Below are positions 34,813 through 39,797 of a DNA stretch of 64,000 nt, piece by piece. The notes beneath the pieces were generated by a model that made no database searches, was not told where the DNA came from, and saw only the letters and a list, made by a program, of their open reading frames with translations. This DNA comes from Qipengyuania gaetbuli. GTDB lineage: Bacteria; Pseudomonadota; Alphaproteobacteria; Sphingomonadales; Sphingomonadaceae. Within the stretch, counting starts at the first letter, position 1. Every line of letters starts with the position of its first letter. The stretch is from contig NZ_WTYF01000004.1 of the NCBI RefSeq assembly GCF_009827315.1, positions 1,550,001-1,614,000 on the forward strand. Reading direction: 5' to 3'. A program made the position numbers and the translations under genes.

Positions 34813-35439
34813 ATGAACACGCCCGACCTCAGGCAGGAACGGGCGCGCCTTGCCGCCTATGCCATGGACCTGACCGGTCGGCGCGGGGGCGAGGTAACGC
34901 CGGAAATCCTTGCGGCAGAGGTCGGCGTATCGCGGGCGCGCATCGAGGCGATCTTCCCCGAGGAATCGGACCTGTTCGATGCCGTGGTCGAACTCTGGTT
35001 CGAACCCCATGTCGCGATCATGGAAGAAGTGCTGGCAAGCGACCTGCCGCCGAACCGCAAGTTCTATGAATTCTACGTCCGCCGTTTCCGCCGCAACCGC
35101 GCGGAATTCCGCCGCGATCCGTCCGCCTTCGCCGTATTGTGCGAACTGGGCGCACGGCGGTTCGAACGCGTGCGCAGCTTCGTCGACCTTGCCGACCATT
35201 ATTTGTGCGAACTGATCGCCGAAGCGCAGGCCGAAGGGCATTTCCCCGGCCTCGAGATCGACCGCGCGCTGACGCTCATCAACCAGATGACCGTGGCCTA
35301 CACCATGCCCGACCTGCTGCAGACGGTCGACGAGCGGCTGACCGAGGACAAGCTCGCCGCCATCGTCGACACGCTCTTTGCCGGCCTTTCCGCGACCGAC
35401 GGCGGTGCCTCTGGCGTGAGTGGCCTGCGCCCGGCGTGA
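34813..35439 (+). CDS. TetR-family transcriptional regulator
   Basis: A 208-aa repressor-type protein. The N-terminal helix-turn-helix (about 15-60) reads GEVTPEILAAEVGVSRARIE then FPEESDLFDAVVELWF, the usual TetR layout; the helical ligand domain fills the rest. ATG 34813 is preferred; an in-frame ATG at 34744 would add 23 residues without family support. Its stop overlaps the glycosyltransferase GTG start (GTGA), so the two share a transcript. The ligand and targets cannot be read; the gene itself or its partner is the first candidate. Confidence 0.85.
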   Translation: MNTPDLRQERARLAAYAMDLTGRRGGEVTPEILAAEVGVSRARIEAIFPEESDLFDAVVELWFEPHVAIMEEVLASDLPPNRKFYEFYVRRFRRNRAEFRRDPSAFAVLCELGARRFERVRSFVDLADHYLCELIAEAQAEGHFPGLEIDRALTLINQMTVAYTMPDLLQTVDERLTEDKLAAIVDTLFAGLSATDGGASGVSGLRPA

Positions 35440-36665
35440 GCGGGAAGTCGCGAAGTCGCCGAATCCTTTTCATCGGCTTGAACTACGCGCCCGAACCGAT
35501 CGGCATCGGTCCCTATAGCGCAGGGCTGATGGAGGCGCTGGCAGAGCGGGGCCACACGGTCCACGCGGTGGTCGGCCAGCCCTATTACCCCGAATGGAAG
35601 ATGCACGAATTCTTCCACGGACGGTGGACGAACACGACCGAGAACGGCGTCACCATCACGCGCTGCCCGCATTACATCCCGGCCAATCCGACCGGATCGC
35701 GGCGGCTGGCGCATCACCTCAGCTTTGCCAGCAGCGCCTATCCTGCGGCCCGCCTCGCGCGGCGCGACCTGCGCCCCGATCTCGTCATGACGGTAGCGCC
35801 TTCGCTGGTCGCTGCGCCGGTGGCGGCGCGCATGGCGCGGCGTGCTGGCGTGCCCTACTGGCTCCACGTCCAGGATTTCGAGGTCGGCGCGGCACAGGCC
35901 ACCGGCCTGCTCGGCAAGGGGCGCGTGGCCGACGCTGCGCTGCGGTTCGAGGAACGCGCGCTTGCCGCCGCCGACATCGTGTCCACGATCAGCGGACCGA
36001 TGAAACGCTTGCTCGCAGCCAAGGGCGTGGCGCCGGAAAAGATCGTCGAACTGCGCAATTGGGCCAACCATGCCTCCCCTGCCGGCGAGCGCGATTACCG
36101 GGCCGAATGGGGCCTCGGTGGCAAGTTCGTCGCGCTCTACTCGGGCAACATCGCCAACAAGCAGGGGCTGGACACGGTGGTGGAAGCAGCGCGCTTGTTG
36201 GTCCATCGCGAGGATATCGCCGTGCTTGTCTGCGGAGACGGTCCAACGCGGGGCCGGCTCGAGAAGCTCGGGGAAGGCATCGCTACGCTGCACTTCAAGG
36301 ACCTGCAGCCGAGCGGGGACGTCGGCGACCTGCTGCATATGGCGGATGTGCACCTGCTGCCCCAGCTGGTCGAAGCGGCGGATCTCGTGCTTCCTTCCAA
36401 GCTCGGCAACATGCTCGCCTCGGGCCGCCCCGTGCTCGCGACAGTGCCAAGGGGCACGGGCATCGCGGACGAGATCGAGGGATCGGGCGTCGTGGTCCCG
36501 CCGGGCGATCCTGCCGCCCTCGCATGGACGATCGAACAGCTGGCCGGGGACCCCGCCTCGTGCAGGGCGATGGGTGCCAATGCGAGGCGCGCAGGCGTGG
36601 AGCGCTGGTCGAAGGGGCAGGTGGTCGACGGGTTTGAAGCGGCAATGGAAGACCTGCTCGGCTGA
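35436..36665 (+). CDS. WcaI-like GT4 glycosyltransferase
   Basis: A 409-aa glycosyltransferase resembling the colanic-acid enzyme WcaI. The GT-B N-terminal half begins RILFIGLNYAPEPIGIGPYSAG with VGQPYYPEWKMHEFF; the GT4 donor half has VALYSGNIANKQGLDTVVEA and ends with the nucleotide-binding LVEAADLVLPSKLGNMLASGRPVL region. It should add sugars to an exopolysaccharide repeat unit at the cytoplasmic face. The start is GTG at 35436, overlapping the TetR stop. It is alone, not in a large capsule cluster; the next gene downstream is a different module. Confidence 0.88.
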   Translation: MSGKSRSRRILFIGLNYAPEPIGIGPYSAGLMEALAERGHTVHAVVGQPYYPEWKMHEFFHGRWTNTTENGVTITRCPHYIPANPTGSRRLAHHLSFASSAYPAARLARRDLRPDLVMTVAPSLVAAPVAARMARRAGVPYWLHVQDFEVGAAQATGLLGKGRVADAALRFEERALAAADIVSTISGPMKRLLAAKGVAPEKIVELRNWANHASPAGERDYRAEWGLGGKFVALYSGNIANKQGLDTVVEAARLLVHREDIAVLVCGDGPTRGRLEKLGEGIATLHFKDLQPSGDVGDLLHMADVHLLPQLVEAADLVLPSKLGNMLASGRPVLATVPRGTGIADEIEGSGVVVPPGDPAALAWTIEQLAGDPASCRAMGANARRAGVERWSKGQVVDGFEAAMEDLLG

Positions 36666-36783
36666 CCTCAAGCCATGCCGCGCCGGACACCGGATGTGCT
36701 GGCGGCATAAAATACCGTTTTCCTACACCTCACCCACTGATTAACCGATTTGGCTCGTTTAATCATTGAGAGGTACCGGATAG

Positions 36784-37215
36784 ATGAGCAACCCCATTCC
36801 CTTGCAGGCTCCCGGCGGCTTTGCACCCCTTTCCGCCAGCGGGTTCGACGATGGAACGGGTCATCTTGCGCCCGTCAGTTCGGCCAGCCCGCTTCCGGTC
36901 ACGGCGGTGGCCGGCAGCACCAGCGAGCCGCTTGACGGGACGCTGACGGGCTCGGGCCTTGCCGGGCCCTTCGAGCCGTCCGGCCTCGATCCGGTCTATT
37001 GCACGCTGGCGGGCGATTTCACCGGCACGGTCGGGGTCATGCGCTCGCTCGACCGCGGCGCGACGCTGCATCCCTTGACGGCGGGCGGCGTGCGCTGGGC
37101 CGAATTCGGCGGACCGGCCTGCGAGCCGGTGTGGATCGAGAGCGAACAGGGGGCCTCGCTCTGGCTCGATTGCGCGCTTGCTTCGGGAACGCTGGCCTAC
37201 AGGCTCGCGCAATGA
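36784..37215 (+). CDS. Small phage-like protein coupled to a beta-helix protein
   Basis: A 143-aa protein with no signal peptide and no transmembrane segment. It is rich in Gly, Ser, Thr and Pro at the N-terminus (GFAPLSASGFDDGTG, SASPLPVTAVAGSTSEPLDG) and has a C-terminal beta-rich part (GVMRSLDRGATLHPLTAGG, EQGASLWLDCALASGTLAYRL). This looks like a virion beta-sandwich or adaptor rather than an enzyme. A GAGAGG site precedes the ATG, and the stop overlaps the next gene (ATGA). With its partner it fits a tailspike or head-spike base plus spike; I recall the RcGTA head-spike pair GhsA/GhsB having this layout, but homology is not shown. Confidence 0.6.
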   Translation: MSNPIPLQAPGGFAPLSASGFDDGTGHLAPVSSASPLPVTAVAGSTSEPLDGTLTGSGLAGPFEPSGLDPVYCTLAGDFTGTVGVMRSLDRGATLHPLTAGGVRWAEFGGPACEPVWIESEQGASLWLDCALASGTLAYRLAQ

Positions 37216-39164
37216 ACGCGCTGGCGATTTCCTCCCTCGCCCTTGCCGTCGAGGCGGCGCAGGGCAAACCCTGCCTCTTCGCGGACCTAGCCCTCAAATC
37301 GCCCCGACAGGATGCCGGCCTGCTGGTGTCGAGCGGGCACGCAGCGCCCGGCCTTGGCGCGGGCACCTATGTCTGCGATGCGCGCTGCACGCCCGAGCTA
37401 TTGGCCGCGCACCCCCGCTTCGTCGTCCGCACCGCCAACGGGCGCATCTTCCGCCTCCTGCCCGAAAGCGGCGCCATCACGCCCGAACAGGGCGGCGCGG
37501 CGGGCGACGGGGTGACGGACGACCAGCCCGCGATCCAGGCGGCGGTCGACTACGCCGAAGCCGTGGGCGCGCAGGAGGTGCGCTTTCCTGCACCTCGCTA
37601 CCGGATCGACTGCCCGCTGCGCACCTCTCCTGCAGACCAGAGCCTTGCGCGTGACGGGCACCCCATCGTGATCAGCAAGTCGCTGGCTTTCAGGGGCATG
37701 GCGGCAGGGCGGACGGTGCTCGACTTCCGCGCGCTCGATGGTGCTCCGGCGGAGAGCGACTGGCAGCTTGTCCCCGCCTCCGCATCCGACCCGTCGCTTG
37801 CCGTCTGGCGCGGCGGGGGGATTTTCGTGAGCGGCGATACCGTCGACCCCGGCAAGGGGCAGCGCACTGTCGCCCGGCTGGAACTCGACCGGCTGGTCCT
37901 TTACGGCAACCGGCAGCACACGGGCAATCATGCCTGGCCCGCCTATCCTGTGACAGGCGACGGGTGGGACATCACCGACAAGGCGCTGTGGGTGCAGGAT
38001 TGCCATGTCGGCGAGATCGTCTGCCGCGATACCGACATGATCGGCTGGAAGGGCGAGATCTTCTACCTCGGCGGCGCGATCGACGCGGTGGAGCGGGTCG
38101 AACTGGCCCGCTGCCGCTTCGCCAGCACCAATGGCAGCGCCTTCAATCCCGGCTGCAATGCCGAAATCCTCGCCACCGATTGTTCCTTCGGCGACGCATT
38201 CCAGGCGCAGGAGGAGACCGGCAAGAACCGCGCGATCTATCGCAATTGCGTGTGGCACGACTGCGACCACACGACGATCGGCAGCGGTTCGACCGCCGCG
38301 TTTCTCTACAACTGGGTCTGGCCGACGCGCGTCGAGGCTTTGCCGCCCCCGCTCACCCTGCTCGACAATTGCGAGTTTCGCGACGTCGGCTGGCTGCGCG
38401 TGCTCAGCTGGGTTTCGGGATCTATCCGCACGGTGGACACGCCGGTCGGCCTGCCGGGCAGCGACGGCCAGGCGATCAGGGACGTGGACCTCGGGATCGA
38501 CGCGCTGCTCGACCGCAAGACCAACATCCACGCGCTCGGCCTCTATGGGTTGGACACGCTGGAAGAGCAGGTCCCGGGCGCACCCGCCGGCGTGTTCAAG
38601 CGCCCGCCTGCCAATGTCTCGCTGCGCATCACGCACCGCCGCACCAGCGCCGCGCGGGAGGCAGGGCGTGAATGGCTGGGCGTCAGCTGGAGCGGCCTCG
38701 TCGACGCCTCCTGCTCCATCCACGCGCAGGGCGAATATGCGAGCGGCCGCGTTCCCAACGGCGGGGACGCGCCCGTCTCCATGCCGCTCGTCACCTTCGG
38801 CCCCGGCGCGCCCAGCACCAGCTACTGGGCGCGCGGCTGGTACGCCGCGCCTGCGTTCTCCGGCCCTGGCGAGATAAAGGTCACCGCGCCGCTGATGGCG
38901 GTCACGCTTGCCGACGCGATCATCGCCGACATGACCTTGTCGCGCCCGCCTTCGGGCGGAAGCAGCTTCGGCTATGCAGAGGGCCAGACGGTGCGCATCA
39001 GCAAGGTAGGCGCGGCAGGCAGCTTCCGCTTCGGCAAAGGGGCGTCCGCATCCTTCGCGGTCACCGCGACGCGCAGCCTCGTGAACGAATGCGACTGGAT
39101 CGAATTCACCTACAATCGCGAGCGCCAGCGGTGGGAGGAAAGCGGCTTCTTCTCCGACGCGTGA
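37212..39164 (+). CDS. Pectate-lyase-fold right-handed beta-helix protein, phage spike-like
   Basis: A 650-aa protein. After a conserved-looking N-terminal section (about 1-85), residues 94-104 are GGAAGDGVTDD followed by QPAIQAAVDYAEA, the start of the Pectate_lyase_3 beta-helix seen in tailspikes and GH28-related proteins. Helix turns run to about 450, then a beta-rich C-terminal region ends ECDWIEFTYNRERQRWEESG. No convincing signal peptide: the start lacks a basic n-region. It may bind or cut surface polysaccharide. It is translationally coupled to the 143-aa gene. An ordinary polysaccharide lyase is the alternative. Confidence 0.75.
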   Translation: MNALAISSLALAVEAAQGKPCLFADLALKSPRQDAGLLVSSGHAAPGLGAGTYVCDARCTPELLAAHPRFVVRTANGRIFRLLPESGAITPEQGGAAGDGVTDDQPAIQAAVDYAEAVGAQEVRFPAPRYRIDCPLRTSPADQSLARDGHPIVISKSLAFRGMAAGRTVLDFRALDGAPAESDWQLVPASASDPSLAVWRGGGIFVSGDTVDPGKGQRTVARLELDRLVLYGNRQHTGNHAWPAYPVTGDGWDITDKALWVQDCHVGEIVCRDTDMIGWKGEIFYLGGAIDAVERVELARCRFASTNGSAFNPGCNAEILATDCSFGDAFQAQEETGKNRAIYRNCVWHDCDHTTIGSGSTAAFLYNWVWPTRVEALPPPLTLLDNCEFRDVGWLRVLSWVSGSIRTVDTPVGLPGSDGQAIRDVDLGIDALLDRKTNIHALGLYGLDTLEEQVPGAPAGVFKRPPANVSLRITHRRTSAAREAGREWLGVSWSGLVDASCSIHAQGEYASGRVPNGGDAPVSMPLVTFGPGAPSTSYWARGWYAAPAFSGPGEIKVTAPLMAVTLADAIIADMTLSRPPSGGSSFGYAEGQTVRISKVGAAGSFRFGKGASASFAVTATRSLVNECDWIEFTYNRERQRWEESGFFSDA

Positions 39165-39242: not shown

Positions 39243-39797
39243 ATGGCGATTCTTTCCGACAAGTGGATCCGCGACAAGGCGCTCAACGAAGGCATGATCG
39301 AGCCTTTCGTCGAAGCGCAGCGCCGCGAAGGCTGCATTTCCTACGGGCTGTCGAGCTATGGCTACGACGCGCGCGTCGCGCCCGAGTTCAAGATCTTCAC
39401 CAATGTCGACAGCGCGGTGGTCGATCCCAAGGATTTCGCCAGCAACAGCTTCGTTGATCGCGACACCGACGTCTGCGTGATCCCGCCCAACAGCTTTGCC
39501 TTGGCGCGCACAGTCGAATATTTCCGCATTCCCGAGGACGTGCTGGTCATCTGCCTCGGCAAGAGCACCTATGCCCGCTGCGGCATCATCGTGAACGTCA
39601 CCCCGCTCGAACCGGGCTGGGAAGGCCATGTGACGCTGGAGTTTTCGAACACCACGCCGCTACCGGCCAAGATCTACGCCAACGAAGGGGCGTGCCAGTT
39701 CCTGTTCCTCAAGGGCAACGAACGGCCCGAAGTGACCTATGCCGACCGCGCGGGCAAATACATGGGCCAGCGCGGGGTGACGCTGCCGCGCCTATGA
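39243..39797 (+). CDS. dcd: dCTP deaminase
   Basis: A 184-aa enzyme deaminating dCTP to dUTP for thymidylate synthesis. The family signature [20 protein letters not shown] is followed by [20 protein letters not shown], which carries the catalytic Glu, and the C-terminus [18 protein letters not shown] closes the active site. Length equals the usual 184-188. The ATG at 39243 gives the canonical start [15 protein letters not shown]. It is a single gene downstream of the phage-like module; pyrimidine supply also concerns nrdA and nrdB further right. Confidence 0.97.

Follow-up and report, generated by a model that had tools for sequence, protein, structure and literature searches.

XepA and YomS are proteins of the lytic cassettes of the PBSX and SPbeta prophages of Bacillus subtilis (PMC6834076). 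In Rhodobacter capsulatus, the detachable tailspike TspA of the gene transfer agent (GTA) is a distally encoded protein of 763 residues that degrades biofilm, and its homologue is reported to be missing from megatron-bearing Alphaproteobacteria outside Rhodobacterales (PMC13420450). The head spike of the R. capsulatus GTA (RcGTA), formed by Rcc01079 and Rcc01080, has a flexible, lectin-like fibre of 325 residues and needs the GTA capsid (PMC7296036, PMC10218006). RbmB is a polysaccharide lyase of Vibrio cholerae (PMC11637428). These descriptions come from excerpts of the cited papers. Here we describe a pair of overlapping genes, SMALL and BIG, from Qipengyuania gaetbuli. The window, i.e. the whole stretch of 64,000 nucleotides that was analysed, belongs to a genome assembly of 2.78 Mb in 4 contigs, and the features of the locus are as follows:

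35436..36665, + strand: family-4 glycosyltransferase (GT) gene with a GTG start (Pfam PF13579, E 8e-22, and PF00534), syntenic partner of the pair
36718..36726, + strand: conserved upstream element TTTTCCTAC, the only YTTTCCTAC site in the window
36742..36755, + strand: imperfect inverted repeat TAACCGATTTGGCT, a putative operator, 15 nt after the upstream element
36784..37215, + strand: small protein gene (SMALL), 143 aa, with a leader of about 40 residues and then a predicted beta-sandwich; putative docking partner
37212-37215, + strand: ATGA overlap, 4 nt common to the SMALL and BIG reading frames
37212..39164, + strand: large protein gene (BIG), 650 aa, with a predicted N-terminal helix, right-handed beta-helix and C-terminal beta region
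39246-39797: dCTP deaminase-like gene, downstream of BIG

The two reading frames of 143 and 650 aa overlapping by ATGA, as given in the original prediction, were confirmed: homologues, recurrence of the overlap and low dN/dS go beyond chance. Both proteins have homologues in numerous genomes and metagenomes (31 and 117 matches). The wider set comprises at least 47 loci from named genomes, 43 of them labelled sphingomonad, which together with the window give 48 listed loci; they are related by descent and their counts are not independent. One of these 43 loci is from Actirhodobacter, which we assumed to be a sphingomonad. The gene in the position of BIG overlaps SMALL by 4 nt in 33 of the 46 scorable listed loci, and eight more start at most 3 nt after SMALL.

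The 650-aa BIG protein contains EQGGAAGDGVTDDQPAIQAA. Its entry segment GGAAGDGVTDD, also pointed out originally, lies within a region common to phage tail proteins and alginate epimerases. Against the PHROGs, BIG matched several phage tail and tailspike families, chiefly over this entry region (best E 5.5e-7), and SMALL had no match. The Pfam family PF12708 scored 23.2 bits on BIG, below its cut-off of 27. Judged by eye, no signal peptide is evident in either window protein, which agrees with the earlier observation on BIG, and none is evident in most of the listed chromosomal loci. In two chromosomal copies (L144 and L146), the second gene begins with a signal-peptide-like stretch, and in L144 the small gene does so too.

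AlphaFold2 predicted a beta-sandwich for SMALL (mean pLDDT 86; at least 93 per block from residue 51) and, for BIG, a right-handed beta-helix whose chain starts with a helix (mean pLDDT 93.8). All structural matches reported here are VIA-align results. The best ones for SMALL are the prophage lytic-cassette proteins YomS and XepA (6-9% identity); those for BIG are AlgE4, RbmB and tailspikes, with alginate epimerases scoring best. The structural comparison proposed originally gave tailspike folds for BIG. Sequence profiles searched against the PDB returned neither the RcGTA head spike nor TspA (an absence that is no refutation), and the base of the head spike was outside the 50 matches listed for the beta-sandwich monomer model of SMALL. 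BIG is likely an enzyme, and we annotate it as a putative exopolysaccharide lyase or hydrolase.

Our best reading is that the pair is a domesticated, lysis-associated phage module of two proteins, which the cell retains for use on the exopolysaccharide (EPS) that it makes; we give this reading a probability of about 50%. Its basis is the existence of phage relatives with the same architecture, the linkage to EPS genes, the swapping of the second-protein body, purifying selection, the predicted folds and the upstream element. Phage ancestry and association with EPS genes are well supported and very probably hold. The pair, which lies beside slime genes in many sphingomonads, probably cuts or modifies the slime of the cell that encodes it.

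The association with EPS genes was examined at two scales. Within the genus, SMALL is present in 24 of 60 genomes. An orthologue of the GT (at least 63% identity), which we take to be WcaI-like, was found in 23 of the 60 genomes, 22 of which carry SMALL (p=4e-13, phylogeny ignored); because the GT immediately adjoins the pair in this genus, their co-occurrence is partly linkage. The two carriers without this orthologue are G078 and G207, and G211 has the GT without the pair. In G244 and G246, the GT gene is interrupted by a stop. Partial matches (fragments in G241, G207 and G253) and a 48% match elsewhere in G078 were left out of the count, and a weaker GT match of some kind occurs in all 60 genomes. 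For the listed loci, we considered six clusters of polysaccharide genes: three GT clusters, a flippase-like one (no Pfam match), a GDP-fucose-synthase-like epimerase and a Wzy-like polymerase. At least one of them lies within seven predicted genes of the pair in 40 of the 48 loci, and at least two in 27 of 48. One of two GT clusters accounts for 37 of 48, and one GT cluster alone for 25 of 48. None of the six was found at eight loci (L117, L119, L120, L123, L124, L142, L144 and L146), some of which are on short contigs. On an IMG/VR contig filed as viral (L086), the surroundings of the match resemble a host EPS locus more than a virus, with a dTDP-sugar epimerase-like gene and an ABC ATPase recognised by eye.

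The second gene keeps its N-terminal motif while its body is swapped between a beta-helix and a GDSL esterase. Scored with a simple ARGLA- or ALGLA-type pattern, the motif is present on the second protein in 34 of 46 scorable listed loci. The bodies form a BIG-like beta-helix cluster (21 loci), a second cluster (14 loci) and a third one (5 loci) among the listed loci. Ten representatives of the second protein were compared with Pfam: five gave a GDSL esterase (L122 under the cut-off), one a sub-threshold beta-helix and four nothing.

The region of 110 nt upstream of SMALL was then scored against 1899 background windows, drawn at random from these loci. The pattern [CT]T[GT]TCCTAC is present in this region in 45 of the 48 listed loci vs. 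3 of the 1899 background windows. It is followed, after 3 or 15 nt, by a TAACC-N3-6-GGYT repeat in 27 of 48 loci (1 of 1899 windows). In five loci (L131, L135, L140, L141 and L142; 5/48 vs. 6/1899), the inverted repeat is replaced by a GAAC-N7-GAAC box, presumably the LexA box of alphaproteobacteria. Since the same type of box precedes recA in 24 of 30 relatives, including the source genome, the SOS response may control the pair in these five loci. For the window copy, such control was rejected, no LexA-type box being present in its 110-nt upstream region. A genome-wide regulon defined by the upstream element was not supported, as the element gave 10 sites and its reversed control 11.

These data also bear on a role without lysis, in which BIG and its counterparts would be accessory enzymes of EPS biosynthesis (an epimerase, lyase or deacetylase in polymer maturation) exported by another route. 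Such a role fits the linkage to EPS genes and the alginate epimerases found as best fold matches, and purifying selection would be expected from it equally. However, most loci have no signal peptide by eye, the swapping of unrelated enzyme folds on a constant docking pair resembles phage modules, and five loci carry LexA-type boxes. We consider this role rather unlikely.

The phage side of the pair became visible with profiles. Searches of IMG/VR with the profiles A1 and A3 gave 3 and 17 relatives; 15 of the 17 were examined, L166 and L167 being omitted as look-alikes of L165. Scanning viral contigs with the single sequence of SMALL or BIG found nothing, and tblastn of SMALL against 50,697 phage records gave no match; BIG matched phage records in its entry segment only, with a coverage of at most 19% (in the 20 of 39 records listed). 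A profile match to a phage small-protein family has a probability of 97% (E 6e-11), and the phage relatives are distant (28-44% identity). A phage small-protein family found at L089-L099 (...TIQLERSFDGGxTW...) is related to the sandwich domain, and L087 has a member of it without a PHROG match. In L087, the small protein lies beside capsid and portal matches, and an open reading frame containing EIDAAARGLAAKA comes about 550 nt after it.

In six of the 15 examined phage contigs (L164, L170, L173, L175, L176 and L177), a second gene with an ATG or GTG start overlaps the first by 4 nt, and its product has a signal-peptide-like start (by eye) followed by an ARG-x-A motif; the other nine lack an overlapping partner with this motif. 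An endolysin gene (phrog_181) is found just upstream of the pair in L164 and L170, and phrog_6102, annotated as a lipase in the moron category, is matched by the second protein of L164. According to PHROG matches, the neighbours encode baseplate hub, tail terminator and tail completion proteins in L176 and baseplate proteins in L173 and L178, and the pair is flanked by tail genes in L173 and L176. We presume these tail and baseplate neighbours to be P2-like. The signal-peptide-like starts of the six relatives and the endolysin upstream of two suit an exported lysis-phase protein better than a virion part assembled in the cytoplasm.

Could the pair instead be the tailspike or fibre of an ordinary phage, prophage or tailocin virion, either orphaned or used by a helper phage? 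The tailspike-type folds, the matches to tail PHROGs and the position of some phage relatives among tail genes are in its favour, and the markers sought in the source genome were limited to the PF05065 capsid, the GTA megatron and the GTA capsid. Against it, the PF05065 capsid was absent across the whole source genome, the six phage relatives have signal-peptide-like starts, the pair adjoins the same GT in 22 of 24 carriers and is under purifying selection, and the searches of phage records above found neither SMALL nor, in the records listed, more than the entry segment of BIG. We therefore judge a virion part of this kind to be unlikely.

The original prediction had named a GTA head spike or an orphan phage tailspike as possibilities. 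Its description of a phage-type two-gene module with a tailspike-like beta-helix, probably directed at polysaccharide, stands, whereas the assignment to a GTA is not supported: the source genome has no GTA cluster, with its flanks intact, which is one of the refuting results set out originally, and the pair occurs about as often with as without GTA genes. The supposed size match to GhsB was wrong too, the head fibre being 325 aa long in the excerpts of its description (PMC7296036), vs. 650 aa for BIG. At the site occupied by the cluster in relatives (G000:C4 near 1970900-1972000, L158), the source genome keeps syntenic flanking genes, with a gap of about 1.1 kb between an OmpA-like gene and the conserved gene that follows in the flank. 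At the same site, G146 and G198 carry terminase, portal, capsid and tail genes; Pfam identified Terminase_6, Phage_portal, Phage_capsid, Phage-tail_3 and Rcc01698_C among the cluster proteins of G146. The cluster of G078 (L035) has an internal deletion: what is left of it is a terminase piece, an NlpC-like gene, the megatron and a small gene further downstream.

To follow GTAs across genomes, PF13547 proved unsuitable: no genome out of the 199 of the GTDB family exceeds its cut-off though many carry PF13550, which means that PF13547 undercounts GTA-type megatrons in this family. For this reason, we used the relatives' own megatron and capsid, whose identities were confirmed by Pfam. In the genus, the megatron was found in 36 of 60 genomes (some partial), i.e. 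in 14 of 24 SMALL carriers vs. 22 of 36 non-carriers (p=1.0, phylogeny ignored). A capsid match was found in 33 of 60, i.e. in 12 of 24 carriers vs. 21 of 36 non-carriers (p=0.60, phylogeny ignored). The capsids matched in G213, G214 and G216 are probably those of other phages, as they are only 46-48% identical. The GTA capsid has an internal TGA in G198 and G252 and is split in two pieces in G246 and G218. In the family sample, PF13550 marks 147 of 199 genomes (144 over the cut-off), among them 27 of 34 carriers of SMALL vs. 120 of 165 others (p=0.52, phylogeny ignored).

A distally encoded spike added to GTA particles, either a head spike or a TspA-like tailspike, is thus ruled out in the source organism by the missing cluster, unless a helper GTA exists. 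More generally, a GTA-type capsid is matched in 11 of the 24 carriers, and the TAACC repeat seems to resemble CtrA half-sites. CtrA controls the GTA activator gene gafA (PMC6363796, excerpts). TspA offers a precedent for a distally encoded GTA tailspike with a beta-sandwich and a beta-helix that degrades EPS (PMC13420450, excerpts), and the R. capsulatus head-fibre gene rcc01080 adjoins, by gene number, the capsule genes rcc01081-01086 (PMC10218006, excerpts). Set against these points, the associations are null in the genus and in the family, and the pair is intact in 10 of the 13 carriers that lack a GTA-type capsid vs. 10 of the 11 that have one. In the stretches examined from G146 and G198, the upstream element does not precede the first GTA genes, and the strict repeat is absent; YTTTCCTAC occurs twice in the GTA stretches, both times in L037 (on the opposite strand near the OmpA-like flanking gene, and inside a tail gene). 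The excerpts of the literature on GTA activator sites contain no motif like TTTTCCTAC (PMC11150451, PMC6363796). A GTA spike is very improbable.

Sequence comparisons between copies indicate that the pair is under purifying selection and yet can be lost. In the 14 closest pairs of copies, dN/dS is 0.06-0.19 for BIG and 0.10-0.29 for SMALL, and it is 0.116 for BIG between G214 and G201, both without a GTA megatron. Of the 23 genus copies with a recognisable BIG, 20 are unbroken in both genes; BIG is frameshifted in G206 and G246, and the small gene of G201 contains a stop. The pair is dispensable, as it is broken in these relatives and BIG is unrecognisable in the 24th carrier, G207. The frameshifted copy of G206 (L101) is from a Q. 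gaetbuli strain, and a truncated version of 374 aa (P0070) is also listed for this species. The three broken copies might suggest a phage remnant in decay that persists through its linkage to the GT. This is hardly credible given the low dN/dS, which already makes it unlikely, the 20 unbroken copies and an upstream element conserved across genera.

In the domesticated lysis module that we favour, SMALL, with its XepA/YomS-like beta-sandwich, would be the constant docking partner, and the conserved N-terminal helix and motif of the second protein probably bind to it. The body would be an exchangeable, polysaccharide-active part, here a putative beta-helix lyase or hydrolase and elsewhere a GDSL esterase, with the polymer of the cell as its presumed substrate. 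A conserved promoter region, on which a regulator would act, belongs to the pair itself, and EPS glycosyltransferases usually lie nearby; such an arrangement allows an enzyme and a type of polymer to be passed on jointly. Since no signal peptide is evident in either protein here, release would most likely occur with cell lysis or by another non-Sec route. Once outside, where we assume it acts, the enzyme would loosen the self-made matrix.

A wider proposal, which we put forward tentatively, is that a domesticated prophage lysis module, widespread in sphingomonads, serves them as a built-in device for matrix dispersal. It would combine a constant XepA-like docking protein with a swappable EPS enzyme encoded next to EPS genes, and a promoter element of its own would drive it, under LexA control in some Sphingomonas and Sphingobium. 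Dying cells would in this way set free an enzyme that fits the slime they make, and no phage or GTA particle would be involved. If this is true, the pair would be a second, particle-free answer to the task of TspA, bringing an enzyme that degrades self-made EPS into the matrix around lysing kin. Matrix turnover in sphingomonads would become testable, the pair would define a family of EPS enzymes with neighbouring genes as a hint to the substrate, and it would provide a worked case of prophage late genes turned into cellular genes linked to a biofilm polymer. The case also shows that a beta-helix reading frame can be misread as a GTA spike. In the open-access literature, we found no paper joining Sphingomonadales, tailspike and exopolysaccharide, and the titles and abstract beginnings of papers on domesticated depolymerases do not describe the pair.

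Finally, the pair can be compared with the known systems. A secreted polysaccharide lyase or GH28 enzyme would be expected to have a signal peptide, and none is evident by eye in the window proteins. The pectate-lyase-fold tailspikes of phages (Sf6, CBA120 TSP2 and phi29 gp12) share the right-handed beta-helix predicted for BIG; they are anchored to a virion, whereas the pair is chromosomal and EPS-linked. The gene organisation of RbmB is not of the phage type, unlike that of the pair, and to our knowledge RbmB has no small partner gene.

XepA and YomS have the type of beta-sandwich fold predicted for SMALL. Their identity to SMALL is nevertheless low (6-9%), and the excerpts describing them mention no enzyme partner gene. 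They belong to a prophage lytic cassette, whereas the pair is chromosomal, between a GT and a dCTP deaminase-like gene. XepA is a cytotoxic pentamer, and SMALL was modelled as a monomer.

The remaining comparisons rest on excerpts of the GTA literature. Like the pair, the RcGTA head spike is encoded by two genes near a polysaccharide locus (for capsule) and has an N-terminal anchoring peptide, comparable to the putative docking helix of BIG. It differs in its lectin-like fibre of 325 aa, compared with the 650-aa beta-helix of BIG, and in its GTA cluster, which is missing here. Its base is a pentameric jellyroll, and the monomer model of SMALL is a beta-sandwich. TspA is similar in that it combines a beta-sandwich with a right-handed beta-helix, is distally encoded and acts on the biofilm of its producer. 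However, TspA is a single chain with an N-terminal beta-sandwich, whereas here there are two genes and BIG begins with a helix. Its gene lies next to lysS, whereas the neighbours of the pair are the GT and the dCTP deaminase-like gene. TspA is also tied to the GTA, whereas the pair is GTA-independent.
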